Shown here one piece after another: positions 3,175 to 23,022 of a stretch of DNA of 43,653 nucleotides. How positions within the stretch are numbered: the stretch's first letter is position 1; each line of letters opens with the position of its first letter. The DNA is taken from contig CAMYMF010000005.1 in assembly GCA_947259355.1 (NCBI GenBank), positions 1 through 43,653 on the forward strand, in the 5' to 3' direction. The notes beneath the pieces are model-generated. The model was not told the DNA's origin. It searched no databases and was given only the letters and a program-made list of their open reading frames with translations. The stretch comes from an uncultured Nitrospirota bacterium. Lineage in GTDB: Bacteria > CG2-30-53-67. A program made the position numbers and the translations under genes.

Positions 3175-5079
3175 CTATCGCAGCACCCGCTTGTCGCCCT
3201 TCCGGGCCGTGAGGCCCGTGGCATCGAAGTACTCAAGCAGCGGGATGAGGAACTTGCGGGTGATGTTGAGGATCTCCCGGGTATCGGGCACGCTCATCTC
3301 ACCCTGCTCCTCGAGGAATCGCCTCACTTTCTCCCTGCCTTCCTTCAGGGCGACCGCGTCCATGAAGAGGTCCCCTTGAATGCGGACCAGCTCATTGCTG
3401 TCAGTGAGGTAACGCATAAGATCACTCACCAGGCGCTCGTCCAACCCCAGCTCCTCGGGCAAAGATCTCGCGTACGGCGGTTTCATCCCTGCCTTTCGGT
3501 AAAGGGCGCGAATCTTCTCGACGGCGGCCTCCTCCTCTCCCTTGAGACGAACACGGTGCTCCGAACGACGGACGAGTTTTTCCTCGACACAGAGCACAGC
3601 TTCGCGGCCGAGCCGGTTCAGGACAGCCTGAAAGAGTTTTTCATCGATCAGCCCGGAGAGTCGGGAGAAAAGCTCCGCCTTCGGTAGCCCCGGCTCCAGC
3701 GGTTTTTTCTGGTGAAACTCCTTGAGCACCCGCACCATCCGCTCCCGGATCTCTCCGTAGAAGTCACGGTGCAGCAGATGGAGTGTGTCGGAGCTGACGG
3801 TAAAGGCCGTACCGTTGTCGCGAAGCTTCTGCAGGATCCGCTTCGAAGTCCCCTGCGCCAGCGGCAGCCGACAGCGAAAGGCCGCGAGGTCCATTCCCTT
3901 GAAGCCCGAATGGTAGAGAAATACACCCGCCTTCTCTTCAGGCTCTCCTTTCTCCAGGAACTGCAGCGAAGGGATCACCCGAGAATCGAAGCGCTTGTGC
4001 TTGACCGGCAGGGGGTCCAGGATCTGGCCTCCGCCGATGGTTTTGTTCTCCGACATGGAGCGGAGGATGAAACGATCGCCCCCCATGGCCACCACCCGTT
4101 CCCGGACGCGGATCTGTACGTAGGCTTGCTCGCCGGGATGCAGTGTTTCGCGATCGAGCAGCACCACGGTGGCAATGCCCCGGGTGGCGCCCACATGAAA
4201 CCGCACCATTGCCCTCTGCTTCAGTGCTTTGTCTACTTCCGGCAGGAGGGAAATCCTAGCGTCCATCATGAAGCTGGGGGTCAACAGACCTGGTACGGTC
4301 ACCGTGTGGCCCCGCTCGATCTTCTCCCGTTCGATTCCCTGCAGGTTCAACGCCGTGCGCTGGCCTGCCTCCGCAACCTCCACACTCTTCGCGTGAACCT
4401 GAACCCCCCGGACCCGGGCCTTGTGCCCCGGAGGGAGGATCTCCACCGTGTCTCCGTTCCGAACGCTGCCGGAGACCAGTGTCCCCGTGACCACCGTGCC
4501 AAATCCCTTCATGGTGAAGATCCGGTCCACCGGCAGGCGGAGGATCCCCTCGCTGCTTCGCTCGGGCACCTGCTTGCTCAGCCCTGTGAGCCCCTCGAGG
4601 AGCGCCGGGATTCCCTGGCCCGTCTTTGCGGAGACGGGAAAGATCCCGCCCCCCTCGAGAAAGGTCCCGGCAACCAGGGCCTCGGCATCCTGGGTGACCA
4701 GTTGGAGCCACTCCTCGTCGACCAGGTCGCACTTGGTGATGACCGTCAGGCCTAGCGGAATACTCAGAAGACGACAGATGTCAAAATGCTCCCGCGTCTG
4801 GGGCATCACTCCCTCGTCGGCAGCAATGACCAGCATGACCAGATCGATCCCCCCGATGCCCGCCAGCATGTTGTTGATGAACCGTTCATGACCGGGAACA
4901 TCGACGATACCCATCTGAGTGCCGTCGGGTAGGGTCAGCTCGGCAAAACCGAGCACAATGGTAATGCCCCGCTGCTTTTCCTCGCGGAGCCGATCGGTAT
5001 CAACCCCGGTGAGCGCTTTGACCAGGGCGGTCTTTCCGTGATCCACATGCCCCGCGGTTCCGAGCACCAGATGTTTCAT
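3175..5079 (-). CDS. selB: Selenocysteine-specific elongation factor SelB
   Basis: 634-residue translational GTPase that delivers Sec-tRNA to UGA codons marked by a SECIS hairpin. The N-terminal GTPase domain opens with [20 protein letters not shown] (P-loop), followed by DVPGHERFI (G3) and TKCD (G4). EF-Tu-like beta-barrel domains follow ([20 protein letters not shown] is the domain 2 signature). The C-terminal ~240 residues are the winged-helix repeats that bind SECIS RNA. Length matches bacterial SelB. The ATG at 5079 is preferred over upstream in-frame codons because the family begins at MKHLVLG. No selC, selA or selD and no obvious selenoprotein are in the window, so their location is unknown; presence of SelB implies the organism makes selenoproteins. 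Confidence 0.95.
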
Positions 5080-7254: not shown

Positions 7255-9315
7255 ATGACCCAACGCAATCAGGACAAAGCCGTCACCGAGTTCCTCGCCG
7301 AAGCCGAAGACATCCTGGAGGGCATCGGCCAGTCGCTCATCGATCTCGAATCGGGGATGAAGAGCGGCGCCGTCAACCCGGAAGTGATCAACACGATCTT
7401 CCGGGGCGCCCATTCCCTGAAAGGTCTTTCAGGGATGCTCGGATTTTTCCGCGTCTCCGAGCTGAGTCACACCCTCGAGAACCTGCTCGACAACCTGCGC
7501 CTCGGGAAGCTCGCCCTGACCGGCGCCGTCATGGACTGCCTCTTTGAAAGCCTCGAAACCCTGAACAGTCTGATTGCCAAGATCGGTCAGGCCGGCGACG
7601 ACGACGTGGAAACCGGCCCCAGCCTGTCGCACATCGACGCGATTCTCTCTGGTGAGGATTCGGAAAAACCCTCGGACGGATCCCCCCTGGGCGGCGTAGA
7701 GCTTGCGGCCTCCGTGCTCGAAGTTCTGACCGAATACGAAGAACACCGCCTGATGGAGAACATCCGCCAGGGCGCCCGGCTCTACGAGGTCCAGGTCACG
7801 CTCGATCTCACCACCTTTGACGATGATCTTCAAGAGTTGACCAAGACTCTCGGCACCCTCGGCGAGGTCATCACCACGCTCCCCAGCGCCTCGGACACTC
7901 CCGAGTCGACCATCCGCTTCAACCTGATCATCGGCACCCCCCACGGCGAGACAGAGCTCCGAGAAGTGATCACTTTGGATACGGCTGTCCTCCGGGAGAT
8001 TCAGTACAGCACAGAGGTCAAGCCGGTCCAGGCCGCTTCTCGCCCCAGCCGTCCCGCTGAGCAAGGGGCGCAAGGGAGACCGGCCGGTACAGAACAGAGT
8101 TTCACGGGTGAGCTAAAAGGCCTGACCAAAACGGTACGCGTCGACATCACGAAGCTCGACGCCCTCATGAACTCCGTGGGCGACCTGATTCAAAAGAAGA
8201 ACATGCTCTACGGCCTCGCCTGGGAGATGAAGAAAGAGAGCACCCTGGCCGGCCCCGCCAACGACCTGCTTCGTATCACCGATGCCGTGGATCGGAAACT
8301 TCAAGAACTGCAGGAGGGCATTCTGGATGTTCGAATGATCCCCATCGGGCAGATCTTCAACCGGATGGCGCGCATTGTACGCAAACTCTCCAACGCCTCC
8401 GGCAAGAAGATCAATTTCAGCACTTCCGGGGAAGATACCGAACTGGACAAACTGGTGATCGAGGACATGGCGGACCCGTTGATGCACATCATCCGAAATG
8501 CCATCGACCATGGGATCGAGCCGCCGGAGGAACGCGAACGCCTCGGCAAACCGGTGGAAGGAACCATCCGTCTCGATGCGTACCAGAAGGGCAACCACGT
8601 GGTGGTGGAAGTCTCCGATGACGGCGCCGGTATCGATGCAGAGCAAGTTTATGCCAAGGCAATCGCGAAGGGACTTTTGGAAGAACAGGACAACCTCGAT
8701 GAAGATTACCTGCTGAAGCTCCTCTGTCTGCCGGGGTTCTCCACGGCCGACGAAATCACCGAAGTTTCCGGGCGTGGCGTCGGCATGGACGTGGTGAAGC
8801 AGAATATCAGCGCGCTGGGTGGCGTCATCGATATTCAAACCGAGCTGGGACGGGGCACCCGTTTCTTCATTACCCTGCCGATAACGCTGGCCATCATGCC
8901 CGCGCTCATCGTCCGCTGTTCGAAACAGACGTTCGCCATTCCGCTGAACGCCGTTTCGGAGAACCTCATCGTCCCCGGTGATGCAGTGAGGACGGTGGAA
9001 CAAAAGGAGGTCATCCGGCTCCGGGGTCGCACCCTTTCCCTGCTGCGCTTGCAGGAGATCTTCCGGTTGCCCCCGAGTGAAAACCCGAAGAACAAGGCTC
9101 ACATCGTGGTGGCAGGCCTTGCCGAGAAAAAGATCGGTATCATTGTAGATGAGTTTCTGGACAAGCAGGAGATCGTCATCAAATCCATCGGCACCACGCT
9201 GAAGAAGATCCGTGGCATCGCAGGGGCGACAGAGACGGCCGATAAGCGGGCCCGACTGGTCCTCGACGTGAGTGCGTTGATAGAGGAAGCCACACAGGGA
9301 GTGCAGACTGCATGA
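7255..9315 (+). CDS. cheA: Chemotaxis-type histidine kinase CheA
   Basis: 686-residue class II sensor kinase that phosphorylates receivers in response to MCP arrays. Order of domains: Hpt (residues 5-110) with phosphorylated H53 in RGAHSLKGLSGM; a ferredoxin-like P2-type region (about 145-250) with linker; dimerisation domain (290-355, VRVDITKLDALMNSVGDLIQ); HATPase (360-540) with N box HIIRNAIDHGIEPPEERE and G boxes DDGAGID and GRGVGMDVV; C-terminal CheW-like regulatory domain (546-675). All catalytic motifs are intact. Starts 2 bases after the receiver gene stop and overlaps the GGDEF gene by 4 bases (ATGA), indicating coupled translation and a functional kinase/diguanylate cyclase pair. 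Confidence 0.96.
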   Translation: MTQRNQDKAVTEFLAEAEDILEGIGQSLIDLESGMKSGAVNPEVINTIFRGAHSLKGLSGMLGFFRVSELSHTLENLLDNLRLGKLALTGAVMDCLFESLETLNSLIAKIGQAGDDDVETGPSLSHIDAILSGEDSEKPSDGSPLGGVELAASVLEVLTEYEEHRLMENIRQGARLYEVQVTLDLTTFDDDLQELTKTLGTLGEVITTLPSASDTPESTIRFNLIIGTPHGETELREVITLDTAVLREIQYSTEVKPVQAASRPSRPAEQGAQGRPAGTEQSFTGELKGLTKTVRVDITKLDALMNSVGDLIQKKNMLYGLAWEMKKESTLAGPANDLLRITDAVDRKLQELQEGILDVRMIPIGQIFNRMARIVRKLSNASGKKINFSTSGEDTELDKLVIEDMADPLMHIIRNAIDHGIEPPEERERLGKPVEGTIRLDAYQKGNHVVVEVSDDGAGIDAEQVYAKAIAKGLLEEQDNLDEDYLLKLLCLPGFSTADEITEVSGRGVGMDVVKQNISALGGVIDIQTELGRGTRFFITLPITLAIMPALIVRCSKQTFAIPLNAVSENLIVPGDAVRTVEQKEVIRLRGRTLSLLRLQEIFRLPPSENPKNKAHIVVAGLAEKKIGIIVDEFLDKQEIVIKSIGTTLKKIRGIAGATETADKRARLVLDVSALIEEATQGVQTA

Positions 9316-10286
9316 CGCAGACGCAAAATGATGCAACCATATTGATCGTGGACGACACCGAGACCGTGCGCCGCCAGATTCAGCGCGTCCTTGCACAGGA
9401 GACGGGATTGGTGGGTCAGTTTCTCGAGGCAGGTTCTGCGCTGGAGGGGTACAAACAGCTCGTCACCCAGAAAGTCGATCTCGTTGTGTGCGACGTGGTC
9501 ATGCCGGACATCGACGGCTTCAAGTTCCTCAGCATGGTGAAGGGCCACCCGGAGCTGGCGCACATCCCCGTACTGCTGCTCACCTCCCAGGGGGATCAGG
9601 AGAGCAAGAACAAAGGACTGGAGCAGGGGGCCAGCGATTATCTGACCAAACCTTTCAATGAGATAGAGCTGCTGGCCCGGGTGCGGGTGCATCTGAAACT
9701 GAAACTGGTGCAGGACGAACTGAGAGAAGCGAACAAACAACTGACGGCGCTGTCCAACACCGATGGGCTGACGGAGATCTTCAATCGGCGGCATCTGATG
9801 AACACCATGACCTATGAGATCTCCCGGGCCGCACGCTATGCATCTCCCCTGGCTTTCCTGCTCATGGATCTGGATGACTTCAAGAGCGTCAACGACACCT
9901 ACGGCCACCAGGCCGGCGATCAGGTCCTCGTCAGTTTCTGCAATCGTGTCAATACTATCCTGCGACGGACAGATATCTTCGCCCGGTACGGCGGTGAGGA
10001 ATTCGCCATCCTGCTGCCGCAGGCAAAACCGAGCGGCGTGGAAAACCTGGCGGAGAAGATCCGGGCGAATCTGGCCAACACCCCCTTCGACATCGGCGGG
10101 CAGCTCGTTACAGTCACCGTGAGCTGCGGCATTGCCAGCTACAAAGAGGGGGTGGCCGACACGGTCGACACCATCATCAAGGAAGCGGACCAGGCACTCT
10201 ATCGCGCGAAGCAGACCGGCAAGAATCGGGTGGTACTGTCCCCGCACTGCCTCGAGGGCGCCCGCGTTCCAGACCATGAGGATTGA
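9312..10286 (+). CDS. Receiver-GGDEF diguanylate cyclase (PleD/WspR-like)
   Basis: 324 residues: an N-terminal receiver with acidic pair in ILIVDDTETV, phosphoacceptor D61 in VVCDVVMPDIDGF and Lys in YLTKPFNE, then a GGDEF domain with active-site GGEEF at 227-231. An RxxD product-inhibition site (RRTD, 218-221) lies five residues before it. All residues needed for c-di-GMP synthesis from two GTP are present. It overlaps cheA by four bases, which makes CheA the likely kinase for its receiver. This layout parallels Wsp-type chemosensory systems, where phosphorylation of a receiver-GGDEF protein raises c-di-GMP; here it is the only recognisable effector in the locus. Confidence 0.94.
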   Translation: MTQTQNDATILIVDDTETVRRQIQRVLAQETGLVGQFLEAGSALEGYKQLVTQKVDLVVCDVVMPDIDGFKFLSMVKGHPELAHIPVLLLTSQGDQESKNKGLEQGASDYLTKPFNEIELLARVRVHLKLKLVQDELREANKQLTALSNTDGLTEIFNRRHLMNTMTYEISRAARYASPLAFLLMDLDDFKSVNDTYGHQAGDQVLVSFCNRVNTILRRTDIFARYGGEEFAILLPQAKPSGVENLAEKIRANLANTPFDIGGQLVTVTVSCGIASYKEGVADTVDTIIKEADQALYRAKQTGKNRVVLSPHCLEGARVPDHED

Positions 10287-10288
10287 AA

Positions 10289-10876
10289 ATGGTTGAGCAG
10301 AACATCATCGATGCCTTTCTGGAACAGATGGGACCTCTCCTGGACGAGGAGCCGGCCCAAGTCGCGCCGGAAACCGCCGGTACAGAGAAGGCGACGGAGC
10401 GGTATCTCGATCTCATGGGGTTTCAGCTGGGCGACGAGGAGTACGCTGTGGACATCATGCGTATCCGGGAGATCACGACCTTGCTTGAGATGACCCCCAT
10501 TCCGAGGGCACCCGGATACATCGCCGGCGTGGTGTCCCTGCGGGGAAACATCACCCCCATCTTCGATCCCAAGAAAAAGATCGGTCTGCCGCAGACTGAG
10601 CGGAGTAATCGCGCACGCATTATCGTACTCAATCGCAACGACGAACAGGTTGGCATACTGGTGGACGCGATCATTGGCGCCGCCCGCGTTGCGCTGGGCA
10701 GCCTGGAGCCCCCACCCGCCGTGATACGGGGTCCCCAGGCCGAGTATGTCTCGGGAGTGGCCCGTGACGCCGATCGGATGTTGATCGTCATGGACATCGA
10801 CGCCATCACCCGGGTCGAAGGCGCGGCGGGAAGTTGGAAAAGGGTTGCTGAACCAGCGAGCCCCGAAGAGAGATGA
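10289..10876 (+). CDS. cheW: CheW-type coupling protein
   Basis: 195-residue adaptor linking MCPs to CheA. A 35-residue N-terminal extension precedes the CheW fold (FQLGDEEYAVDIMRIREI, then TPIPRAPGYIAGVVSLRGN and ITPIFDPKKKIGLP, and EQVGILVDAI). Residues that usually contact CheA and receptors are conserved. Two starts are possible: a TTG at 10283 overlapping the previous stop, or the ATG at 10289, preferred because GAGG at 10278-10281 is 7 bases upstream. It is the only stand-alone CheW in the window. Confidence 0.93.
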   Translation: MVEQNIIDAFLEQMGPLLDEEPAQVAPETAGTEKATERYLDLMGFQLGDEEYAVDIMRIREITTLLEMTPIPRAPGYIAGVVSLRGNITPIFDPKKKIGLPQTERSNRARIIVLNRNDEQVGILVDAIIGAARVALGSLEPPPAVIRGPQAEYVSGVARDADRMLIVMDIDAITRVEGAAGSWKRVAEPASPEER

Positions 10877-10955: not shown

Positions 10956-11030
10956 CACGCAGCAAGCAGTCAACGAAGCAACACCACCCCCCTGTCTGAT
11001 TCAGTAAAGATATTTCTGGAGGTCTCTGTG

Positions 11031-12188
11031 ATGAAACGACATCTGTTCTGCGCCGTGGCCCTGCTCTGCGCTCTCTTGTGCCCCCAGGCGGCGACGGCCG
11101 ATGAACTCGACGATGTGAAAAAAGAAATCAAGGCGCTCCAGGAGCGTCTCGAGGCATTGGAGGCCGAGAGGAAAAGCAAGGCGCTCGAAGAGCGTCTCGC
11201 CGTGCTGGAAGCGGAGGATGAGGATTTCATGCACCGGCTGCAGGAAATGGTCACCGTCGGCGGCTACGCGGACGGCGAGTACATCATGACCGACAAGAAG
11301 GGAGAGAACAATCGCTTCCGCGTGCACCACCTCTCCCTCTTCTTCAAGAAGCAGATATCCGAACAGTGGCGGTTTTTTTCTGAGATTGAATATGAGGACG
11401 CGCCGAAAATCTCGGGCACCGATGACGGCTCCGCCATTAAAGACACTGAGGGCAAAGTTTTCGTTGAGGTCTTTACGTTGGAATACTATTTGAACCGGTA
11501 CCTCAACTTCCGGCTCGGCCGCTTTCTCACCCCCGGCGGCATCTGGAATGTGGACCATTACCCGCCCTTCGTGCTCACCCAGGACCGTCCGCAGCACATT
11601 CGCAAAATCTTTCCGCAACTCCAAGACGGTCTCCAACTGCTCGGCAGTGCGAATATGGCCGACGTGGTCACGGACTACATTCTCTATGTCTCTAACGGAC
11701 AGGGCAACACGGGACACGGCGACGGCAACGAAAACAAGGCCGTTGGCACTCGTTTGAAATTCAAGCTGCCCTATCTGTCGCGCTTGGAGGCGGGGTTCTC
11801 ATACTATCTGGAAGAGAAGAACAACGAAGACGACGTACGCGCCGCGGGGGCCGATCTAGTGATCCAGTGGGGCGGGCTCAAGTTCCAGGGTGAATACGCC
11901 AAGGAGTTCATCGAACCCGCCGTGGGAAGCTTCTTCCAGGAGATCGGCTATTACGCGCAGCTCCAGTATGACTACAGGAAATGGACCCTAGGCTACCGCT
12001 ACGACTGGTACGACAAAAACACAAAAGCCGACAACGACCGCAAAACGATCAACACCATCGTGCTGAACTACCACTTTACTCCGGACGTTGTCGTGAAAGC
12101 GGAGCACCACTTCCACGATCCCCAGGATCGTACCCTGGAAGAATTCACCAAGACTTTGCTCTCGGTGGCGGTCTATCTTGGAGATTAA
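11031..12188 (+). CDS. Outer-membrane porin with N-terminal coiled coil
   Basis: 385 residues. A signal peptide (MKRHLFCAVALLCALL, cut near ATADE) precedes a charged coiled coil (about 28-70, repeated KALEERL/EALEAE heptads) and then a beta-barrel of alternating-residue strands (VGGYADGEYIMTD, FRLGRFLTPGGIWN, WTLGYRYDWYDKN) that ends near the C-terminus. The layout (signal peptide, coiled coil, barrel) is that of trimeric porins related to the phosphate-selective OprP/OprO type; anion selectivity is inference. ATG 11031 is chosen because GGAGG at 11018-11022 lies 8 bases upstream. It is embedded in the chemosensory locus just before a PstS-like periplasmic gene and an MCP, suggesting that it admits the sensed solute. 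Confidence 0.78.
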   Translation: MKRHLFCAVALLCALLCPQAATADELDDVKKEIKALQERLEALEAERKSKALEERLAVLEAEDEDFMHRLQEMVTVGGYADGEYIMTDKKGENNRFRVHHLSLFFKKQISEQWRFFSEIEYEDAPKISGTDDGSAIKDTEGKVFVEVFTLEYYLNRYLNFRLGRFLTPGGIWNVDHYPPFVLTQDRPQHIRKIFPQLQDGLQLLGSANMADVVTDYILYVSNGQGNTGHGDGNENKAVGTRLKFKLPYLSRLEAGFSYYLEEKNNEDDVRAAGADLVIQWGGLKFQGEYAKEFIEPAVGSFFQEIGYYAQLQYDYRKWTLGYRYDWYDKNTKADNDRKTINTIVLNYHFTPDVVVKAEHHFHDPQDRTLEEFTKTLLSVAVYLGD

Positions 12189-12239
12189 TTTCGGCTCCAG
12201 GGTCTGAAACCCTGTATGCGAATACATGGAGACGATACC

Positions 12240-12722
12240 ATGAACACGCAATATAGAGATTTCACGCAGAGCAGTAAGGCGCTCCCTTGGTTCGCCCTCT
12301 GTCTGCTTCTTATGGGCCTGAGTGCTTTTTGGGCTCACCCGGTCGCGGCGGCCGATCCCGTGGTGGTGATTGTCAACACAGCCAATCCCGTGACCTCCCT
12401 GGACCTGAACACCGTCCGGAAATTTTACGAGAATGACCTCCTCCAGTGGGATGACGGCAAAAAGATCACCCTCTATGACTTGCGGGTCAAGGATGAGGCA
12501 CGCCAGCGGTTCTCTCGGGAGGTGCTTCAGAAAGAACCGGACATGGTGGCCATGGAGTGGGCCAACCAGAAGATCACCAATACGGCCAAGAACCCGCCCC
12601 GAACGGTCAGTTCTGAGGTGCTCATGCAGGCCAGAGTGGGAAAAGACCCAGCAGCCATCGGGTACCTTCACCGCAGCGAGTTGAGCAGCGACCAAGTGAA
12701 GGTCGTCGCCACCCTTGAGTAA
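12240..12722 (+). CDS. Small periplasmic PstS-like (phosphate-binding-type) protein
   Basis: 160 residues with a signal peptide (hydrophobic core [18 protein letters not shown], probable cleavage after HPVAAA). The mature part ([20 protein letters not shown], then [14 protein letters not shown] and [12 protein letters not shown]) resembles one lobe of PstS-type substrate-binding proteins and is about half their usual length, like the short PBP-like proteins often found next to porins and signalling genes. ATG 12240 has GGAG at 12228-12231, 8 bases upstream. No ABC permease or ATPase is nearby, so a sensory role with the adjacent MCP is more likely than transport. Ligand unknown; phosphate or another oxyanion is a guess from family resemblance. 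Confidence 0.72.
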
Positions 12723-12783
12723 GACCACCCGAGAGGTGCCCTGCCCCGCGGATGAGACACTACCGCTTGAGAAGGATGAAGAC

Positions 12784-15255
12784 ATGGATGCAGCACGGCC
12801 GAAAATCCGGCGGAGCATCTGGAGGCGAAACCTGAAATCCAGGGTCACCCTGGCGGCCTTGGCGGCCCTTTTGATGATGTCCGGTTTCATGGCCGTCTCT
12901 GCGGAGTACGGGCAGCGGCGGCTTCTGTCAGAAATCGATGCCAATGCCATTGCATACGACAGAACACTCTTTGAGGCGCTGCTGAAAAAGCACTTCCAGC
13001 GCCTCGACAATCAGCTGACCCTTGTGCTCCGTCTGGAGGAGATTCCCGACGCCTTCGCAGTGCGAGATCGCGAGGGTCTGGAAATCGGTGCCGTGCCGGG
13101 CTACGACCTGATACGTTCCCGGGAAAACTTCACCCAAATGAGCTTTTATGTGGAGCCCGGCGTGGCCTTCTTCCGGGCCCACGATCCGACACACCACGGA
13201 GATCGAGTCACCGAGTCTCGGCGGCTCGTAGAGGAGGCCTTGCAGAACAAAGAAGCCCGTATCGGTCTGGAGGCGGACGGGAAGGGCGCGCACCTCTTCG
13301 TCGTGCAGCCGCTCTTTCGCGAGGGCTCTTTCCTGGGCCTCGTTGAAGTCGCCGGGGACCTTCAGCCGGTTCTGGAAGAGATGAAGCAAACCCTCGGCCC
13401 CGATGCGGCCATCCTGTTGCGCACCGGCAAAGCGGCAAAGGGGACACAAACCGATAGCACGTGGTACGCCGCTGCAGCCACCGATGAACGCCTGCTGAAC
13501 CGCATAAGAAAACAGGTCGATTTTGCCCCGGGCTTGGAGACGGATCAACGCATCACTCATGAGGACGGTAACCGCACGTTGGCCACCACGCTCTTTCCCT
13601 TTCGAGATTTTCGGGGCAGAAGCATTGGCGTGGTTGCGGTCAGCTCCAATGTGACGGCCTTCCGCGCCACTATGATCGGAACATTGCTCCGCTCCATCGG
13701 CATCGCAGCTGCCGGCTTCGCAATGGCGGCGGCATGGATCTTTTTTACTCTCGAGAGGAGCTTTCGGCCCCTGTCCCGGATGGTCCATGTGCTGCAGGAC
13801 ATCGCCGAAGGGGGCGGGGACCTTACCCAGCGCGTCGAAGTATACTCCGAGGACGAAATACAGGAAGTCGCCCGCTGGATGAACAGTTTCATGACCAATC
13901 TGCAGGGCATGGTCTCCCAGGTCAAGGAAACGGTGAAAACCGTTTCGGCCGTTGCGCAAAAGATCACAGCGAGCACCGACACCGTAGCCAGTGGTCTGCT
14001 GCAGCAGGAAGCCTCCATTTCAGAGATCGTGCGGCGCATGGACCAGGTCGATCAATCGGCCAGCAGTACACTGGCCGGGATGAGCAACCTCGCCCTCAAC
14101 ATGGGAGAGGCGTCCTCATCGGTTCTCGAGATGAGTGCTTCCATTGACGAGGTGGCACAGGGTACGGAGGATTCTTCGGCGGCCGTCGAGCACAGCGCGT
14201 CGTCCATCATGCAGATGGTGCGATCCATCGATGAGATTTCGAACCATATCAATGCCCTCTCGGCCAGTGCGGAGCAGACAGCAGCCTCCGTGGAACAGAT
14301 CAGCCGATCCATCGAAGCCATCAGCAACAATGCCAACGCGTCCTCGGACAACTCCAGGGAGGCCGCCGCCAAGGCGCAAGGTGGAAACGCTGCGGTGGTG
14401 GAGATGCATCGCGGCATGGAGAAAATCCAGACCACCTTCAACGAAACAGCCTGCGTCATGGACCGCCTCGGAAAGCAATCGGCATCCATCGGCAAGATCC
14501 TCAAGGTGATCGACGAGGTGGCGGACCAGACAAACCTGTTGGCACTGAACGCTGCGATCATCGCTGCCCAGGCCGGCGAGCACGGCAAGGGGTTTGCCGT
14601 GGTGGCCGATGAAATCAAGACGCTCGCAGAGCGCTCTGTGTCGGCCAGCCGCGAAATCTACCACGTAGTCCAAAATGTGCAGGACGAATCGGCCGCGGCA
14701 AGCAAATCGATGCAGGTCAGCGCCGCCACAATCACGCAGGGGCTCAAGTTGTCCCAACAGGCCGCAGAGGCTTTGAAGGAGATCACCGAGACGGTCGGTC
14801 GCTCCCGGAATATGATCGAAGACATTGCCCGAGCCACGGTGGAGCAATCCAAAGGCACCCAGGGCGTCCAAAACGCCATCGGTGAAATCACCCAGGCCCT
14901 GCGCCGCATGGCCGATGGCACGGACCAGCAACGGGCGGGCTCCGAACAGATTATGATCAGCACCGAACGGTTTCGGGAGATGACCGTTCAGGTGAGCCGG
15001 GCCATGCACGAACAGTCCCGGGGCAGCGGCCAGATCAGCAGGTCCATCGAAGAGATCAATACACAAACCCAGCAAATCTCAAAGGCGACGGCGGGACAGT
15101 CCGAGCAGTCTCAACAGGTTCTGTTGAGCGTGCGGACTATTGAGCAGGTGTCTGAGGGAAACACTCGGCAGATTGAGGAGATGACTGCGGCCATTCGGCA
15201 ACTGAGCAATGCAGTGGCGCATCTCCAATCGGATATGGACAAGTTCCAGGTATGA
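12784..15255 (+). CDS. Methyl-accepting chemotaxis protein with dCache-type periplasmic sensor
   Basis: 823 residues. TM1 at about 18-40 ([20 protein letters not shown]), periplasmic sensor to about 297, TM2 at about 298-320, HAMP (to 375), then a long coiled-coil signalling domain with hairpin tip at 578-610 ([20 protein letters not shown]). The periplasmic stretch [20 protein letters not shown] followed by [18 protein letters not shown] fits dCache_3-like sensors. The tip keeps AGE but has Ile where many receptors have Glu (AIEAA), as in a subset of deltaproteobacterial MCPs. ATG 12784 is preferred (AAGGA, 6-base spacing); a TTG at 12715 overlapping the previous gene would add 23 residues. 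It probably senses together with the preceding PstS-like protein. Confidence 0.9.
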
Positions 15256-15275
15256 GTCTGGGAGGAAGAAGCGCC

Positions 15276-18191
15276 ATGCCCCAACGATACGAGCGCCTGA
15301 GGGCGTCGGCCCCTTTTCTAATTCTTTCTCTGCTGATCGCCTGGCTGGGCGGACAGCTCATGTTGGCGGGCTTGGCCTCGGAGCGACAGCTGCAGCAGCT
15401 GGACCGTTTGAGCACCCTTGCGCCGGAGGCCGCAGCGCTGCACCAACAGTGGACAGTCCATGCCGAAGGGCTCGCCGAAAGCCTCCGTGCGGGCGCGGCG
15501 GCGGGTCCCGAGCCGGACCAGCTGCACGGCGATACCCTGGCATGGCTCGGCGACGTGACGCAACAGGGGCAGAGCTGGCTTACGGCCGAACATTCAGCCG
15601 CGATGCGCGAGCACCTGGACCGGCTCCAACGCCTGAGGGGTGCGCAGGGAGCGCGCACGGACCCAGCCGCCTACGAAATACTTCAGGTGATTGAGACCCT
15701 GCTGGACGATCTTCGGGATGCGTCGCAATCTCTGGAGCAGCTGCGGCAGGAGACGCTGAACGGTTTCTCCCGCTCGGGTCTGCCCTCCGCCATGCTGGTT
15801 TTCTTTCTCACGCTCGCCGCCCTTCTTCTGGTGCTGCTGCTGGAAAACCTCTTCGCCGGCGCCATACGCAGGCATCTTCTGCGATTAAGGGAGACCCTCC
15901 TGGCGCTGACACACAACCGGCTCGCCAACAACGGCCGACTCTCGCTCCCCCTCGGCGGATGGGCCGGCGCGGTGTATCCCTTTGCGAAAATTGCCCATCT
16001 GTTGAACAACTGTGTGGAGATTCACGAAGAAGTCATCGCCCAAATCGGGGCGTCCGTCGAAAACTGCGAACAAGCGACCCGGGTAATCGAAAATTGCCAC
16101 CGGGAAATCCACGAAGGCGCTCGGGCCCAGGCCGTTGCAGCCGATGAAACGTCGGCCTCCAGTATTCAGATGACAACAACCCTTCAGGGCGTTGTTTCGA
16201 GCGTGCAGGAGCTGTCGCGATCCACCGAGGCCTCCTCCAAATCCATTCAGGAGATGGACCAGAGCATGCATCGCATCTCTGAAGGAAGCGGAGAGCTTCA
16301 CGCGCTGATCCAACACTCCAACGCCTCCATCAACGACATGGTTTTGTCTATCGGACAGATACGAGAAAGCCTCAGTTCGTTGAGCCACTCCGTTGCGTCC
16401 ACCTCAGCGACGGTCTCGGAAATCAACGCGTCCGTCAAATCGGTGGGACAGCATGCGAAGGAGTCGACCGCTCTGGCCCGGCAGAGCACTCAGGTAACAT
16501 CGGAGACAGGCGTCCGGGCCGTGGAACGGACGCTGGAGGGAATGCAACGCATACGGGAGACTGTGGACGATACAGATCGCCTGGTCAAATTGCTCGACAA
16601 ACGCTCCGATGAAATCGGCGAAATTCTCAACGTCATTGACGAAATTGCAGAAAAGACCAATCTGCTGGCCTTGAACGCGTCCATCATCGCCTCCCAGGCC
16701 GGCACCCATGGCCGGGCCTTTACTGTGGTGGCCAACGAAATCAAGGCGCTGGCTGAGAAGACCAGCGCGTCCATCAGCCAGATCGAACAGGTGATCGAAA
16801 ATACGCAGGCCGAAACCCGGGCCGTGTCTCGCTCAATTCATCAGGGTGTCCAACAGGTGCAGGAAGGGATGGACCGCTCGCTGAAAACGAAAAACGCCCT
16901 AGAGGCCATTCTCAGCAGCTCCAGACAGGCCAGTGAAATGACTGAGCGGATCGAAAAGACAACCATCGAGCAGATTCACGCCATTGACCGGGTCACCGGT
17001 GAGATTCAGAACATCAACGAGCGGGTTCAGCAGATAGCCGCATCGGCCGCGGAGCACGACAAAGGGGGCGCCGTAATTCTGGAGATGATCGCACGGCTCA
17101 GCGAATTCGCAGAGGAGCTCAAGCGTTCCATGGCGCAGGAATCGAAGGGCAGCCAGCGGGTATCGCAGGAAATCGAAAACATTTTCCTCAAGATTCGGGA
17201 GATCAACAAGGCCGTTGGAGAGCACCGCAGCGGCAACGAACTGATCGCCCGCGCCATCGAAAGAATCCGCATCGTCACCGAGGAAAAGATGAATATGGCC
17301 GACGACATGCGCACTGCCATCGTCACCCTCTCGGGCTATAGCAAGGATCTCCAGAATCAGGTGTACCATGCTGCTGCAACGGATACCGAAACCCTCACGC
17401 TCGCGGTGCTGCCCCTGGAATCGGGAAACAAGATGCAGCCCCGCTTTGCCCCGCTGGCGGGGTACCTCGAAGAAGTGCTGAGAAAACGGGTGCAGGTGCG
17501 CGTGTCGCCAGACTTCGAAAGTGCGGTGGACGCTCTAGGCCGCGGCACTGCGGACATGGCCTTTCTTGGCCCCGCGACGTTCATCGAATCCAGAAGGCGC
17601 CACGGCACCGAGGTCATCGTCAAGGCCGTTCGGAATGACTCCCCCTACTATCGCGCCGTCATTGCCACCCGCGAGGGCAGCCCCATTCAGGTCCTGACCG
17701 ATCTCCGGGGCAAGCGCTTCGGGTTCGGCGATGTTCACTCCACTTCCGGGCACCTGGTGCCGAAGGCCATGATAGCCCGGGAAGAAATTGAACTGCAGGA
17801 GCTCGGCGAGCACACATTTCTGCAACACCATGACTCGGTGGCCTGGGCGATCATCAACGGAGATGTGGATGCAGGCGGTCTCCTGGAGCCCGTGGCCCTG
17901 CGGTTCCTCTCCAAGGGCCTCAGGATCGTGGCGACTTCAGCCAATATCCCCGAGTTCAATTTCTGTGTTCGGGCCGCCATGGCGCCCGATTTAAAAAGAC
18001 GTCTGACGCAGGCCTTGCTCGCCCTGGATGCCGAGGACGGAGAACAGCGAAATATCATCAAGAGTATCGAATACGATTATAACGGCTTCATCGCGGCGAC
18101 GGAGCACGACTATTCCGCCATCGAAGATCTGGTGCACCCTGCGGTCCGGGGGGATATGGTGATGCCCATGACGCACGCGGGGGGCTCATGA
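15276..18191 (+). CDS. MCP with C-terminal PhnD-like substrate-binding domain
   Basis: 971 residues from ATG 15276 (GGAGG at 15261-15265); an ATG at 15252 overlapping the previous stop would add 8. TM1 about 13-35, a short helical periplasmic region (about 36-165), TM2 about 167-195 (LVFFLTLAALLLVLLLENLF), and a cytoplasmic coiled coil with tip near 450-490 ([20 protein letters not shown]). Residues about 701-948 match phosphate/phosphite/phosphonate binding proteins of the PhnD type (LTLAVLPLESGNKMQPRFAP, then GTADMAFLGPATFIESRRRH and LRGKRFGFGDVHSTSGHLVP). No further membrane segment separates this domain from the signalling coiled coil, so it should be cytoplasmic. The tip departs from consensus (AGT for AGE). 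Ligand unknown. Confidence 0.88.
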   Translation: MPQRYERLRASAPFLILSLLIAWLGGQLMLAGLASERQLQQLDRLSTLAPEAAALHQQWTVHAEGLAESLRAGAAAGPEPDQLHGDTLAWLGDVTQQGQSWLTAEHSAAMREHLDRLQRLRGAQGARTDPAAYEILQVIETLLDDLRDASQSLEQLRQETLNGFSRSGLPSAMLVFFLTLAALLLVLLLENLFAGAIRRHLLRLRETLLALTHNRLANNGRLSLPLGGWAGAVYPFAKIAHLLNNCVEIHEEVIAQIGASVENCEQATRVIENCHREIHEGARAQAVAADETSASSIQMTTTLQGVVSSVQELSRSTEASSKSIQEMDQSMHRISEGSGELHALIQHSNASINDMVLSIGQIRESLSSLSHSVASTSATVSEINASVKSVGQHAKESTALARQSTQVTSETGVRAVERTLEGMQRIRETVDDTDRLVKLLDKRSDEIGEILNVIDEIAEKTNLLALNASIIASQAGTHGRAFTVVANEIKALAEKTSASISQIEQVIENTQAETRAVSRSIHQGVQQVQEGMDRSLKTKNALEAILSSSRQASEMTERIEKTTIEQIHAIDRVTGEIQNINERVQQIAASAAEHDKGGAVILEMIARLSEFAEELKRSMAQESKGSQRVSQEIENIFLKIREINKAVGEHRSGNELIARAIERIRIVTEEKMNMADDMRTAIVTLSGYSKDLQNQVYHAAATDTETLTLAVLPLESGNKMQPRFAPLAGYLEEVLRKRVQVRVSPDFESAVDALGRGTADMAFLGPATFIESRRRHGTEVIVKAVRNDSPYYRAVIATREGSPIQVLTDLRGKRFGFGDVHSTSGHLVPKAMIAREEIELQELGEHTFLQHHDSVAWAIINGDVDAGGLLEPVALRFLSKGLRIVATSANIPEFNFCVRAAMAPDLKRRLTQALLALDAEDGEQRNIIKSIEYDYNGFIAATEHDYSAIEDLVHPAVRGDMVMPMTHAGGS

Positions 18192-19012
18192 CCATTCAAT
18201 GCGATCGCTGCAAGACTCAGTACCGGATTCCACCGGAACGGATGCCGGCAGCGGGAAGGCGCCTGCGCTGCTCGCGCTGTCAACACGTCTTCACCGTACC
18301 GGACCACGCGCCCCCGCGCCCGAGCATTCTCGTCGCCCACGGAAAGGAGACATTCCGCTCTTTGGTGAAAGAGCTTCTGCGAGATCAGCCCTTCAAGGTG
18401 TTGACGGCGGCGGACGGTGAGGATGCACTCCAGCAGATTCGACGGCATAAGCCTTCGCTTGTGCTCGTCGACGTGGGGTTGCCTGCACGCTTCGGTTTTG
18501 ACCTTTGTGAGACGCTGAAGCAGGATGCACAAACACAGGAGCTTCGAATAATCCTCTGTGCGACCGTCCATAATGAGCACCGCTATACACGGTTGCCCGA
18601 ATCGCTCTACGGAGCCGACGCCTACCTGGAGAGCCACCGGGTTGCGGACCGCCTGCTGCCGATACTCCAATCGCTCCAACCGGCGCTCTTCAAGACCGCA
18701 CGCGCCGGGCAGACGGGAGCAAAGGAGGACCGGCGGGGCTTATCTGTCGGATCGGACGCGCTGCCCGAGGAGCTTCAAGTCCGCACAGCACGCCTGGCCC
18801 GGACGATTCTGTCGGACATTGCGTTGTACAACCGGGACCGTGTTTCCGCCGGCGTCCGCAACGGAAACCTGGAGGAAGTTCTCTCGGAAGAGATCGCCGA
18901 AGCCACCGACATGATGAAAAGACGGTTCGCCGACGTTGACGCCAAAACACTTCAGCAAGTGCTGCAAAAAGAAATCGAGGCGTTCAAAGAGAAGACGAAG
19001 GCACGCGCGTGA
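18188..19012 (+). CDS. MJ0042-type zinc-ribbon protein with degenerate receiver domain
   Basis: 274 residues. N-terminal zinc ribbon (C5-x2-C8 and C29-x2-C32 in MTIQCDRCKTQYR / LRCSRCQHVF), then a receiver-like fold at about 45-165. The receiver keeps an Asp in LVLVDVGLPARFGFD, but the acidic pair is replaced (ILVAHGKE instead of ILVVDDE) and the conserved Lys is missing (AYLESHR instead of YLTKP). It is therefore probably not phosphorylated in the usual way. The C-terminal ~90 residues are helical and charged (LSEEIAEATDMMKRRF), without recognised family. Overlaps the MCP gene by 4 bases and is followed by the HEAT gene, so it belongs to the same transcript. A regulatory docking role is plausible. 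Confidence 0.82.
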   Translation: MTIQCDRCKTQYRIPPERMPAAGRRLRCSRCQHVFTVPDHAPPRPSILVAHGKETFRSLVKELLRDQPFKVLTAADGEDALQQIRRHKPSLVLVDVGLPARFGFDLCETLKQDAQTQELRIILCATVHNEHRYTRLPESLYGADAYLESHRVADRLLPILQSLQPALFKTARAGQTGAKEDRRGLSVGSDALPEELQVRTARLARTILSDIALYNRDRVSAGVRNGNLEEVLSEEIAEATDMMKRRFADVDAKTLQQVLQKEIEAFKEKTKARA

Positions 19013-19055
19013 CGTGTCTGCCCGTTTCGGCTACGCCGGGACGCGAAGGAGGCCG

Positions 19056-21062
19056 ATGGTGACAGAACATCTGCAACAACTGGTTCAGGACTTTCAACAC
19101 AGCGACGTGGAAATCCGCCGAAAGGCCGCCGAGCGCGCGGGGAGCCTGAAAGACAGTCGCGGCATTGCACCACTGACCCAACTGCTGGGAGATGCCGTCT
19201 GGCGCGTCCGGAAGACGGCCATTGACGCACTGCTGGAGATGGACGACAAACACGAAGTAATTGCCCACCTGGTTCTGGCGCTGCGCTCGCACGAGAATGC
19301 AGGCATGCGCAACGCGTCCGTGGAAGCCCTGACGCGCATGGGTGCCCCGGCCGTGCCGCCGCTCTGCCGCGTCGTCACCGATGCCGACCCCGATGTCCGC
19401 AAGTTTGCCATCGACATCCTCGGCGACATCCGCAGCGCGAGTGCCGTGGCGGCACTGATCGGAGCCCTCGCAGATGCCGACGCCAACGTTCGGACCGCGG
19501 CGGCGGAGAACCTCGGAAAAATTGGACAGCCACGGGCCGTTGAGCCCCTGCTGGAAGTGCTGTCGGGAGATGATTTCTGGTTAAAGTTCGCCGCCGTCGA
19601 TGCCCTCGGCAATCTGGGCGACCCGCAGGCCGTGCCCCCGCTGTTGCAACATTTGCACAACGAATCTCTCACCCGCGCCGTTCTGGATGCGCTGGGGCGG
19701 CTTGCGGACGGCGGTGTGCTCGAAAGCGTCGTCCCCCTGATCCAACACAAGAAGCGCACCATCCGCAACGCCGCCGTGCTTGCTGCCGGTCGCATTCTCA
19801 AGCGCTCGGAGGGCGGCGTCGATTCGAACAGCCTTTTTCAGAAAGAGACCAGCGAGGAGACGCTGGACGGACTCATCGCAGCGCTCCAGGAGGACGCTTT
19901 GCCCCTCCGGCAGACCGCACTGCAACTGCTCGGCCATCTAAAGAGCGCGCGATGCGTGCCCTACATCCTCGACATTCTCGGGGACATCGATATCCACGAG
20001 CAGGCCGTGTCCGCTTTGATGCAAATTGGGCCCGCAACGGCACCACACCTGATGGACGCCTTGGACCATCCCGATGAGCTGATCCGCAAAGCCGCAGCTG
20101 CGGTGATCGGTAAGGTCGGTGACGATACCACGTCCAGGCAGCTGGTGGAGCTGTTGCAGGATGACAACGGACACGTTCGACAGTCGGCTGCGCTCGCCCT
20201 GGCCAACCTAAATTGCTCTCAGGCTGCGCCCGCCTTGCTCCCCCTTCTGAATGATCCCTATCCGGACGTACAGGCTGCGGCTGTCCAAGCGCTGCAGAGA
20301 ATCGGGGATCAAAGCGCAAGCGCAACATTGATGGAACTGCTGGGGCACAGCAGTCCCTCGTACCGGAGGAATGCCGCGCTGGTGCTCGGAGCGCTGCACA
20401 CCAAAGACGCCGTCGAGCGACTTGTCTTTGCCGTCAATGACGAATGCCCCGAAGTCCGGAAAGCGGCCGTTGTTGCGCTCGGCCGCATCGGAGGAGACCG
20501 TGCGTTGGAAGGTTTGGTCTTTACCCTTTCCGACGAAATCACCGACGTGCGTCTCTCCGCCGCCACGGCGCTGCAGCACTTCAACGCCACCGCCGCCAAG
20601 CCGATCTTGATTTCGTTGCTCAAAGACGAGGACATCTGGGTCCGCTGTGCGGCAGTACAGGGTTTAGGCGAAATCGGCGATGCGGAAACGGTGGGCGTGC
20701 TGATTCCCCGCCTGGACGCAGAGATGCCACCCGTTCAGATAGCCATCCTGGACGCACTGGCAGACAACAAGGATCCCCGAGTCTTTCCGGTCCTGCTCAA
20801 AGCCTTGGAGAGCGCAGACAGGGAAGTCCGACGGGCCAGCATGCTCGCTCTCGGCAGGAACGGCAACCGCGCCGCCTTCGGTTCCCTGCTCTATCTGCTG
20901 GAGTCGGCCGACTGGAGTGAGCGCAATGCCGCCGTAGAAGCTCTGGGACTCCTGGGCGACGAGCGGGCAGTGCCCTATCTCAAAGAGATCGTCCACCATG
21001 ACCCAGACCCGCTGATTCAGAAGACCGCCCGTCAGGCCGTCGTAAGACTTTCGAGAGGATAA
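19056..21062 (+). CDS. HEAT-repeat protein
   Basis: 668 residues built almost entirely of about twenty ~31-residue HEAT (PBS-lyase-like) repeats of the form 'vR..Aa.aLg.igd..av..Li.aL.D.d..V', for example KAAVVALGRIGGDRALEGLV and VRCAAVQGLGEIGDAETVGV. No signal peptide or membrane segment. Such solenoids are protein-binding scaffolds. Sitting between a pseudo-receiver and cheR, it is likely a structural or regulatory component of this array; HEAT proteins also occur in other deltaproteobacterial chemosensory clusters. Start: ATG 19056 is only 3 bases from AAGGAGG (19046-19052); the adjacent GTG 19059 has better spacing and may be the true start. Ends one base before cheR. Confidence 0.88.
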   Translation: MVTEHLQQLVQDFQHSDVEIRRKAAERAGSLKDSRGIAPLTQLLGDAVWRVRKTAIDALLEMDDKHEVIAHLVLALRSHENAGMRNASVEALTRMGAPAVPPLCRVVTDADPDVRKFAIDILGDIRSASAVAALIGALADADANVRTAAAENLGKIGQPRAVEPLLEVLSGDDFWLKFAAVDALGNLGDPQAVPPLLQHLHNESLTRAVLDALGRLADGGVLESVVPLIQHKKRTIRNAAVLAAGRILKRSEGGVDSNSLFQKETSEETLDGLIAALQEDALPLRQTALQLLGHLKSARCVPYILDILGDIDIHEQAVSALMQIGPATAPHLMDALDHPDELIRKAAAAVIGKVGDDTTSRQLVELLQDDNGHVRQSAALALANLNCSQAAPALLPLLNDPYPDVQAAAVQALQRIGDQSASATLMELLGHSSPSYRRNAALVLGALHTKDAVERLVFAVNDECPEVRKAAVVALGRIGGDRALEGLVFTLSDEITDVRLSAATALQHFNATAAKPILISLLKDEDIWVRCAAVQGLGEIGDAETVGVLIPRLDAEMPPVQIAILDALADNKDPRVFPVLLKALESADREVRRASMLALGRNGNRAAFGSLLYLLESADWSERNAAVEALGLLGDERAVPYLKEIVHHDPDPLIQKTARQAVVRLSRG

Positions 21063-21905
21063 ATGATCACCCACGAGCTTTCATTGAGCGATACCACCTA
21101 TCGCCTGCTGAAAGAATTCATCTACCGGCACTGCGGGCTCTTCTTCGACGACGGCAACAAATATCTGTTGGAGAGACGCCTGGCAAACCGTGTCGCACTG
21201 CATCAGCTGCGCGATTTCCAGGAGTATTATTATTATCTCATGTACGACAAGAACCGCGCTGAAGAGCTCAACGCCGTTATCGACATTCTCACCATCAACG
21301 AAACTTACTTTTTCCGGGAGGTGCCGCAGCTGAAGGCCTTTGCAGAGGAGATACTCCCGGAGATCGCCGAGGCCAAAGGCCGGGCGGGAGAGCGGTCTCT
21401 GAGAATCTGGAGTGCAGGCTGCTCGACGGGAGAGGAACCTCACACAGTGGCCATGCTGGTCCTCGACTCAGGCCTCTTCGCCGGCTGGGAGGTGGAGATC
21501 TTCGGCAGTGATATCAGTCACCGGGTGCTCAAGATCGCACGTAAAGGTGAATACGGTCCCTCGTCGTTTCGGTGCACCGATCCGCTGCACCGGGATAAAT
21601 ACTTTACCCCCGTTGATGGAAAGTGGCGCATCATTGATCCCGTTCGGCGCCTCGTGCATTTCGGGTACCTCAACCTGTTTGACAGCAGCCGGATCGCACT
21701 TCTGGGAGAGGTGGACATTGTATTCTGTCGCAATGTGATCATCTATTTTGACAAGGAAGGCAAAAAAAAGGTCATCACCGAATTCGAGAATCGGTTGAAA
21801 ACAGGCGGCTATCTGCTGCTCGGCCACTCCGAGTCGCTCATGAACCTCTCGACGGCCTTCCGCCTGAAACATTTCAAACACGACATGGTGTATCAGAAAG
21901 CCTGA
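21063..21905 (+). CDS. cheR: Chemoreceptor methyltransferase CheR
   Basis: 280 residues. Transfers methyl groups from S-adenosylmethionine to glutamates of MCP helices for adaptation. An N-terminal all-helical domain (1-80) is followed by a Rossmann methyltransferase with IWSAGCSTGEEPHTVAML (SAM-binding), IFGSDISHRVLKIAR and VDIVFCRNVIIYFDKEGKKK, all hallmarks of CheR. The ATG at 21063 follows the HEAT gene stop directly, with GAGAGGA upstream. No TPR extension, so it is the minimal form. With cheB it indicates that the two MCPs undergo methylation-based adaptation. Confidence 0.95.
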   Translation: MITHELSLSDTTYRLLKEFIYRHCGLFFDDGNKYLLERRLANRVALHQLRDFQEYYYYLMYDKNRAEELNAVIDILTINETYFFREVPQLKAFAEEILPEIAEAKGRAGERSLRIWSAGCSTGEEPHTVAMLVLDSGLFAGWEVEIFGSDISHRVLKIARKGEYGPSSFRCTDPLHRDKYFTPVDGKWRIIDPVRRLVHFGYLNLFDSSRIALLGEVDIVFCRNVIIYFDKEGKKKVITEFENRLKTGGYLLLGHSESLMNLSTAFRLKHFKHDMVYQKA

Positions 21906-21942: not shown

Positions 21943-23022
21943 GTGAACATCCGCAGCACAACCGATACCATCCGCGCCCTGGTGGTCGATGACTCGGCCT
22001 ATCTGAGGCGGCTCATCTCGGACACGCTCAGCGCGATCCCCGGTGTGCATGTGGTGGGAACGGCATTCAACGGCCAGGACGCCATCCCCATGACCCTGCG
22101 TCTCAAGCCCGATCTGATCACCCTGGATCTGGAGATGCCGCAGATGAACGGCTACACCTTCCTGCGCTGGCTCATGCAGGAGCAGCCAACCTCCACCATC
22201 ATCGTGAGCTCTGAAGGAAGCGAAGAGAATGTGCTGAAGGGCCTAGAATTGGGGGCCGTCGATTTCATCGTCAAACCAACCCGTCGGATCACACCGGAGT
22301 TGAACGTCATCCGGGAGGCTTTGCTCGAGAAAGTGCAGACCTTGAGAAACCTCAGGATCGACAATGTCAAACGACGACTCACTTGGCGACCCTCGGAAGT
22401 CCCGGCCCCGGCCTGCCCGGTTTCGCCGGCCCGGAAGGGGCCCATCGACCTAGTGGCCATCGGTGCGTCCACCGGCGGCCCACCGGCGCTGCAGACCATT
22501 CTCAGCCAACTTCCAGAGGATTTCCCTGCGGCCGTCACCGTGGTGCAACACATGCCGCCCAAGTTCACTCGATATTTCGCACAGCGTCTGAACGACTCGT
22601 GCCGCCTGGCAGTCAAAGAAGCAGAAGACGGCGATCCACTCCAGACGGGTGGCATCCTGGTGGCGCCGGGAGACGCCAACATGATCCTGAGGCGAACTCC
22701 CGCCGGGATTGTCGTAGCCCTGGCCCCGGCCTCGCCGCAAGACCGGTTTACGCCGTCCGTCAATGCCATGATGCAATCGGCAGCGGAGCTGTTCGGGCAA
22801 CGGGTTCTGGGAGTGCTGCTGACCGGCATGGGAGACGATGGACGTATCGGCATGGGCGCGATCAAGGCAGCCCACGGCACCACCATTGCCGAGTCTGAAG
22901 AGACGGCCATTGTGTTCGGCATGCCGGGGGAGGCCGTCAAGGCGGGCGCCGTAGACCACGTCTATCCCCTGAACCAGATTGCGCGGAGAATCTGGTCTCT
23001 CTGCGTGCCCGGGGAGAGCTGA
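21943..23022 (+). CDS. cheB: Protein-glutamate methylesterase/deamidase CheB
   Basis: 359 residues from a GTG start. Receiver domain with D17-D18 region (ALVVDDSAYL), phosphoacceptor D62 (TLDLEMPQMNG) and Lys in DFIVKPTR, a linker, then the methylesterase domain. The catalytic triad is S176 (IGASTGGPPA), H203 (VVQHMPPKFT) and D299 (LLTGMGDDGRIGM), all present. Removes methyl groups from, and deamidates, MCPs; phosphorylation of its receiver by CheA normally activates it. The Shine-Dalgarno (GGAG near 21926) is rather distant from the GTG, so the start is moderately certain. Confidence 0.95.
   Translation: MNIRSTTDTIRALVVDDSAYLRRLISDTLSAIPGVHVVGTAFNGQDAIPMTLRLKPDLITLDLEMPQMNGYTFLRWLMQEQPTSTIIVSSEGSEENVLKGLELGAVDFIVKPTRRITPELNVIREALLEKVQTLRNLRIDNVKRRLTWRPSEVPAPACPVSPARKGPIDLVAIGASTGGPPALQTILSQLPEDFPAAVTVVQHMPPKFTRYFAQRLNDSCRLAVKEAEDGDPLQTGGILVAPGDANMILRRTPAGIVVALAPASPQDRFTPSVNAMMQSAAELFGQRVLGVLLTGMGDDGRIGMGAIKAAHGTTIAESEETAIVFGMPGEAVKAGAVDHVYPLNQIARRIWSLCVPGES

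Follow-up and report, generated by a model that had tools for sequence, protein, structure and literature searches.

An old question is how chemotaxis senses a cell's internal metabolism, and the usual answers are the PTS, redox, and energy. A receptor that carries its own internal domain for binding phosphorylated compounds would link the two directly. Chemoreceptors with a ligand domain at the C terminus form a recognized, rare, and poorly studied class that includes at least 17 domain types, according to Ortega and Krell (PMC7390727). The studied example is TlpD, which carries a CZB domain (PMC13001251). The phosphorus-binding proteins PtxB, PhnD, and GpxB hold P-O groups with a hinge Tyr, a Ser-x-Ser loop, and a His (PMC5700983, PMC12718374), and replacing the cap Tyr of PtxB by Phe costs about three orders of affinity (PMC5700983). 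Finally, a family of glycerol 3-phosphate chemoreceptors in plant-associated bacteria is described as responding to a plant signal molecule (PMC12395807). Has a PhnD-type domain been described at the end of a chemoreceptor? Among the papers covered by our literature search, none names such an MCP-PhnD fusion.

The window, i.e., the whole stretch of 43,653 nucleotides analyzed here, comes from an incomplete draft genome (94 contigs, 90% complete) of an uncultured Nitrospirota bacterium. It carries a chemosensory cluster that includes two neighboring chemoreceptors, MCP1 and MCP2 (Table 1). MCP2 is encoded on the forward strand by an open reading frame at 15252-18191, giving 979 amino acids if counted from the ATG at 15252, as all residue numbers are here; the start in the first-pass annotation, 15276, is residue 9. 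Because the aligned Met of the orthologues falls on the codon at 15276 and a GGGAGGA resembling a ribosome site lies a few bases upstream, 15276 is probably the better start on these sequence grounds. We consider it fairly likely that MCP2 is a chemoreceptor anchored in the membrane and that its cytoplasmic C-terminal PhnD/PtxB-like domain is the working sensor, reading a phosphorus compound inside the cell.

Table 1. Features of MCP2 and of the chemosensory cluster around it (positions in the window)
Feature	Positions	Strand	Basis or remark
CheA	7255..9315	+	
CheW	10283..10876	+	Pfam
Small exported PstS-like (PBP_like_2) protein	12216..12722	+	Pfam, hydropathy
MCP1, neighboring chemoreceptor: dCache_3, HAMP, MCPsignal	12715..15255	+	Pfam
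MCP2, MCP-PhnD fusion chemoreceptor	15276..18191	+	ORF call, Pfam, orthologue alignment; in-frame ATG also at 15252
MCP2 membrane helix 1, residues 22-42	15315..15377	+	Hydropathy
MCP2 outer (periplasmic) domain, residues 43-176	15378..15779	+	Probable helical bundle; 16-19% identical between genera
MCP2 membrane helix 2, residues 177-197	15780..15842	+	Hydropathy
MCP2 post-membrane linker, residues 198-261	15843..16034	+	No HAMP recognized at E 0.01
MCP2 MCP signalling hairpin, residues 262-703	16035..17360	+	Tip ~456-506; Ile479 at the usual Glu position
MCP2 linker, residues 704-715	17361..17396	+	No membrane segment (hydropathy)
MCP2 PhnD/PtxB-type binding domain, residues 716-955, predicted cytoplasmic	17397..18116	+	Pfam, NCBIfam, AlphaFold/Foldseek, alignment
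Zinc-ribbon response regulator, directly downstream of MCP2	18188..19012	+	Pfam
CheR methyltransferase	21063..21905	+	Pfam
CheB methylesterase	21943..23022	+	Pfam

That MCP2 is an MCP follows from the presence of MCPsignal (PF00015) above its cut-off (residues 420-590, E 1.4e-37, 129.6 bits against 34.6 in Pfam) together with a long antiparallel hairpin, the helices of which span residues 303-482 and 488-657 in a full-length model of low confidence (pLDDT 53). In many MCPs, though not all, the second membrane helix is followed by a HAMP domain; MCP1 has one, and Pfam recognized none in MCP2 at E 0.01. The strict methylation motif [ASTG][ASTG]xx[EQ][EQ]xx[ASTG][ASTG], which differs among receptor classes, occurs once in MCP1 and not at all in MCP2. 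Inspection of MCP2 revealed no CheR/CheB pentapeptide at the C terminus. In both receptors, Ile replaces the tip Glu that is conserved in most chemoreceptors (16617-16769 for MCP2; within 12715-15255 for MCP1).

What is the domain at the C terminus? The last 250 or so residues had been read in the first-pass annotation as a complete PhnD-like domain, and domain searches bear this out: Phosphonate-bd (PF12974) matches residues 718-954 over profile positions 2-242 of 242 (E 1.3e-59, 201.9 bits against a cut-off of 27). The NCBIfam family TIGR01098 scores 167.7 bits, above its curated cut-off of 112.05, while TIGR03431, the equivalog for PhnD of phosphonate transport, reaches 141.2 bits and stays below its cut-off of 261.1. 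An AlphaFold model of residues 688-979 (292 residues, mean pLDDT 88.8) has phosphite-bound PtxB (5jvb) as its top Foldseek match, with a TM-score of 0.90, which excludes a lack of structural similarity to PhnD. Among proteins of solved structure, the closest in sequence is also PtxB (E 2.8e-35), followed by HtxB, PhnD, and ArrX. The domain does not have the marks of a transport-type PhnCDE binding protein, in that no export signal precedes it and no PhnE-type permease scores above cut-off in any of the six genomes of the family; given that no PhnE passes the cut-off, it was not copied from the binding protein of a resident transporter.

The residues that hold the P-O groups have counterparts in MCP2 at Y800, S830-T831-S832, and H860, invariant in all six orthologues, and the putative pocket further includes F755, E879, and F902. 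Eight of nine tested pocket positions are invariant, compared with 93 of 240 across the domain (P 0.0025); on this alignment, the pocket looks used and constrained. Phosphite is not put forward as the ligand: PtxB is the nearest solved relative, yet its phosphite-specific cap is altered in MCP2, with Tyr203 replaced by F902, the Asp16 latch by L722, and the pocket residue Tyr49 by F755. Judged by its residues, the pocket matches none of the standard types for phosphite, 2-aminoethylphosphonate, or glycerol phosphate. Since the specificity residues are altered, no particular ligand can be named, and we infer as the candidate a small phosphorus oxyanion or a phosphorylated metabolite.

How widely is the fusion conserved? 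The phylum is small, and the comparison set comprises eight genomes, six of the same family (three genera) and two of the next family. All six family genomes carry the fusion, at 48-82% identity, and neither of the two from the next family does. Identity to the other genera varies greatly by region, with 16-19% in the outer domain (complete rows), 51-56% in the hairpin arms, 73-78% at the tip, and 53-57% in the PhnD domain. Across the five full-length orthologues, 7 of 134 positions are invariant in the outer domain and 99 of 240 in the PhnD domain. Since the outer domain has diverged, no HAMP is recognized, and the PhnD domain is conserved, the conserved candidate sensor of MCP2 is the inner domain and not the outer one. 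MCP2 had been proposed to possess both an outer and an inner sensor, and the inner half of that proposal is well supported, while the outer half fares poorly. A true dual receptor, with sensing by both the outer helical and the inner PhnD domain and integration by the hairpin, seems unlikely, even though the ~130-residue outer domain between two membrane helices is kept in all five orthologues with complete sequence in this region, and even though MCP ligand domains usually diverge fast. The scarcity of invariant outer positions and the lack of a recognized HAMP speak against it, as does a TAA that interrupts the outer-domain frame of one orthologue (L008 in genome G005, near 3504-3510), where the hairpin and the PhnD domain stay open.

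A second set of fusions emerged when we searched another phylum, taken as Bacillota by gene content and represented by 398 genomes. These proteins have about 585-670 residues and consist of an MCP domain followed by PhnD. Among 23 distinct genes (L112 being the same gene as L054, and L101-L103 not caught by the motif used), 13 have no membrane helix and the others have one or two at the N terminus with no outer domain; none of the 23 has a helix beyond the hairpin tip. In the helix-less proteins, the PhnD domain must, from this predicted topology, be cytoplasmic. The first survey of this phylum missed members later found with a closer query. In three other phyla, no fusion was found among 195, 386, and 395 genomes, which are weak, threshold-limited negatives.

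The Bacillota-like fusions also keep telling company. One class carries the fusion in 14 of 26 genomes, and in 12 of these 14 cases the gene has an HPr-sigma54 regulator gene on one side and dhaK on the other, within a fuller operon, wherever the contig is long enough, of glpK-glpA-glpB-DUF1667-HPr/s54-MCP-PhnD-dhaKLM. L096 and L062 lie within a glp/dha operon, L091 and L092 directly 3' of pk-gap-pgk-tpi-eno, and one fusion beside glpP. Receptors of glycerol/dihydroxyacetone-kinase operons, soluble or anchored, are L064, L095, L096, L101-L111, and L114-L124, counts that are not all independent, as one family supplies most of the dha cases. Several members (e.g., L093, L094, L097, and L099) have no such metabolic neighbors. 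Triose- or glycerol-phosphate metabolism is nonetheless the context common to different Bacillota-like families, and because of these glp/dha and gap-pgk-tpi-eno operons, it suggests that the receptors sense a cytoplasmic phosphorylated metabolite, a triose-phosphate or glycerol-phosphate.

Could the PhnD domain of MCP2 serve for docking instead? A localization function is possible for the C-terminal parts of MCPs, and the lack of a visible CheR/CheB pentapeptide would leave room for such a role. Docking would not require a pocket more conserved than the whole domain, however, and the independent fusions sit in metabolic operons, which makes this alternative distinctly improbable.

Which side of the membrane does the domain face? 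Hydropathy finds two membrane segments in MCP2 (~22-42 and ~177-197), both N-terminal. After residue 198 the highest Kyte-Doolittle value in a 19-residue window is 0.99, compared with 2.03 and 2.84 for the real helices, and the junction at residues 704-722 reaches only 0.78, excluding a hidden membrane segment near residue 700. As no membrane segment lies anywhere after residue 197, including between the hairpin and the PhnD domain, a cytoplasmic location of this domain is well supported by the predicted topology. The first-pass annotation had placed a PhnD-like domain after the MCP coiled coil and in the cytoplasm, which agrees with this profile; the gap from hairpin to domain is 12 residues. 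Its suggestion that the domain acts on the array "from below" is doubtful on geometric grounds. The arms of the hairpin, roughly 262-479 and 479-703, are about equal in length, and the chain would therefore return to the membrane-proximal end, so that the PhnD domain should lie near that end and not at the CheA/CheW tip. A periplasmic PhnD domain that relays an outer signal through some unusual topology recalls the export signals of those free PhnD relatives with inspected N termini, and it is very improbable in light of the hydropathy after residue 197, the need for the hairpin to face the CheA side, and the 13 of 23 independent fusions without any membrane helix. An artefact of annotation or assembly joining two genes is refuted, since, despite the neighboring but separate MCP and PhnD genes seen elsewhere (L037, L038, L077, L086), one open frame crosses the junction in six independent assemblies from three genera, a result that also answers the first-pass call for homologues with the same fusion, together with the second, independent set.

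Did the two families inherit one fusion? A PhnD tree of 63 rows groups the six fused domains of the window's family in one clade (support 99), close to free sensory PhnDs, and the 14 Bacillota-like fused domains in another (support 100), close to different free PhnDs. A single clade for all fusions is rejected by the AU test (p 0.0004; quick trees, long branches removed). The pocket signatures differ as well, with a cap Phe in the window's family versus Asp in the Bacillota-like one, and the hairpin from tip to domain measures about 237 residues in MCP2 versus about 170 in L064. A single origin is ruled out by the AU test and the hairpin lengths; as far as these trees and alignments go, the fusion arose separately in the window's family and in the Bacillota-like phylum. 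The metabolic operon context comes only from the latter, and given the separate origins, it supports internal sensing in principle and not the ligand of MCP2.

The nearest free relatives of the MCP2 PhnD domain (L016, L041, L042, and L084) are exported by appearance, and for the three with a scanned neighbor (L016, L041, and L084), the next gene encodes a histidine kinase. Plasmids of Pseudomonas veronii and Cereibacter carry separate MCP genes paired with an exported PhnD gene, as do G496 and G1309. Such pairs include L037:3869-6654, L038:2966-5597, and L086:2059-4941, two of them on plasmids; the Cereibacter genes overlap by 14 bases. The apparent fusions in G496 (L077) and G1309 (L086) proved to be neighboring separate genes with exported PhnD proteins. 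The long frames L078-L081 were likewise discarded as fusions, PhnD being free and exported in L078 and L079 and the MCP part lacking in L080 and L081.

How might MCP2 work? Its binding domain probably began as an exported binding protein with a sensory role, of the type found beside histidine kinases or MCPs, which the gene fusion would have relocated to the cytoplasm. Its ligand there would be a small phosphorus oxyanion or a phosphorylated metabolite. The two lobes would close on the ligand next to the membrane-proximal end of the hairpin, via the ~12-residue linker; we infer this contact, the full-length model being poor (pLDDT 53). Lobe closure would then alter hairpin packing and hence how active the cluster's own CheA is. 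The first-pass annotation had allowed for an internal phosphorus compound or some other ligand, and of these the phosphorus type is favored by the topology, the invariant anion motif, the independent helix-less fusions, and their operon context.

The cluster itself runs CheA, response regulator-GGDEF, CheW, porin, PstS-like half protein, MCP1, MCP2-PhnD, zinc-ribbon response regulator, HEAT-repeat protein, CheR, and CheB. This order is retained in G003 and, over the reach of its contig, mostly in G002. The porin and the small exported PstS-like half protein just upstream of MCP1 (11028-12722) are conserved in G003 and possibly provide an outer, phosphate-related input to MCP1. A long HEAT-repeat protein (18990-21062) lies, with the zinc-ribbon response regulator, between the MCPs and CheR. 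No gene for a phosphorus or sugar-phosphate enzyme was found in the window's cluster. Tandem binding proteins, PBP_like_2 (PstS-like) followed by PhnD in a single protein, are encoded at L002:382-2304 (the same genome, contig C6 57293-59215) and L033:1453-3117. The former is flanked by a histidine kinase gene, a HAMP-PAS-HisKA frame, and a response-regulator gene.

Taking both families together, we propose, tentatively and with slightly less than even confidence, that an external phosphorus-collecting module has moved inside at least twice, yielding chemoreceptors for the cell's own small phosphorylated metabolites, with CheA output that tracks metabolic state. If so, the Bacillota-like receptors would read triose or glycerol phosphate and the window's family some phosphorus compound, and movement or other CheA output would follow metabolism and not the concentration outside. 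The conserved glycerol/dihydroxyacetone and glycolysis operons of the second family offer a short list of candidate ligands, and the window's family represents an independent fusion in a little-sampled phylum.

How does the fusion compare with known systems? As in TlpD and other CZB-type receptors, the sensor domain of MCP2 follows the MCP signalling domain and would be cytoplasmic. Unlike them, MCP2 has a two-lobed PhnD/PtxB-type domain, a membrane anchor, and a diverged outer domain, and CZB (PF13682) is not among its Pfam matches. With PtxB, PhnD, and GpxB of phosphorus ABC transporters, it shares the fold and the anion motif of Tyr, Ser-Thr-Ser, and His, but its domain is MCP-fused and predicted to be cytoplasmic, lacks a transporter partner and a signal peptide, and differs at cap residues F902, F755, and L722. 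The separate exported PhnD-like partners of MCPs (L037, L038, L086) and of histidine kinases (L016, L041, L084; AioX/ArrX type) apparently share its use in signalling rather than transport and include its nearest free relatives; theirs are free and outside, whereas that of MCP2 is joined and, by prediction, inside. The glycerol 3-phosphate receptors (PMC12395807) likewise link chemotaxis to a phosphorylated three-carbon compound, whereas the MCP-PhnD family would gauge an internal pool. The MCP-PhnD fusion would extend an already known class, the chemoreceptors with a C-terminal ligand domain, by a domain of the PhnD/PtxB type.
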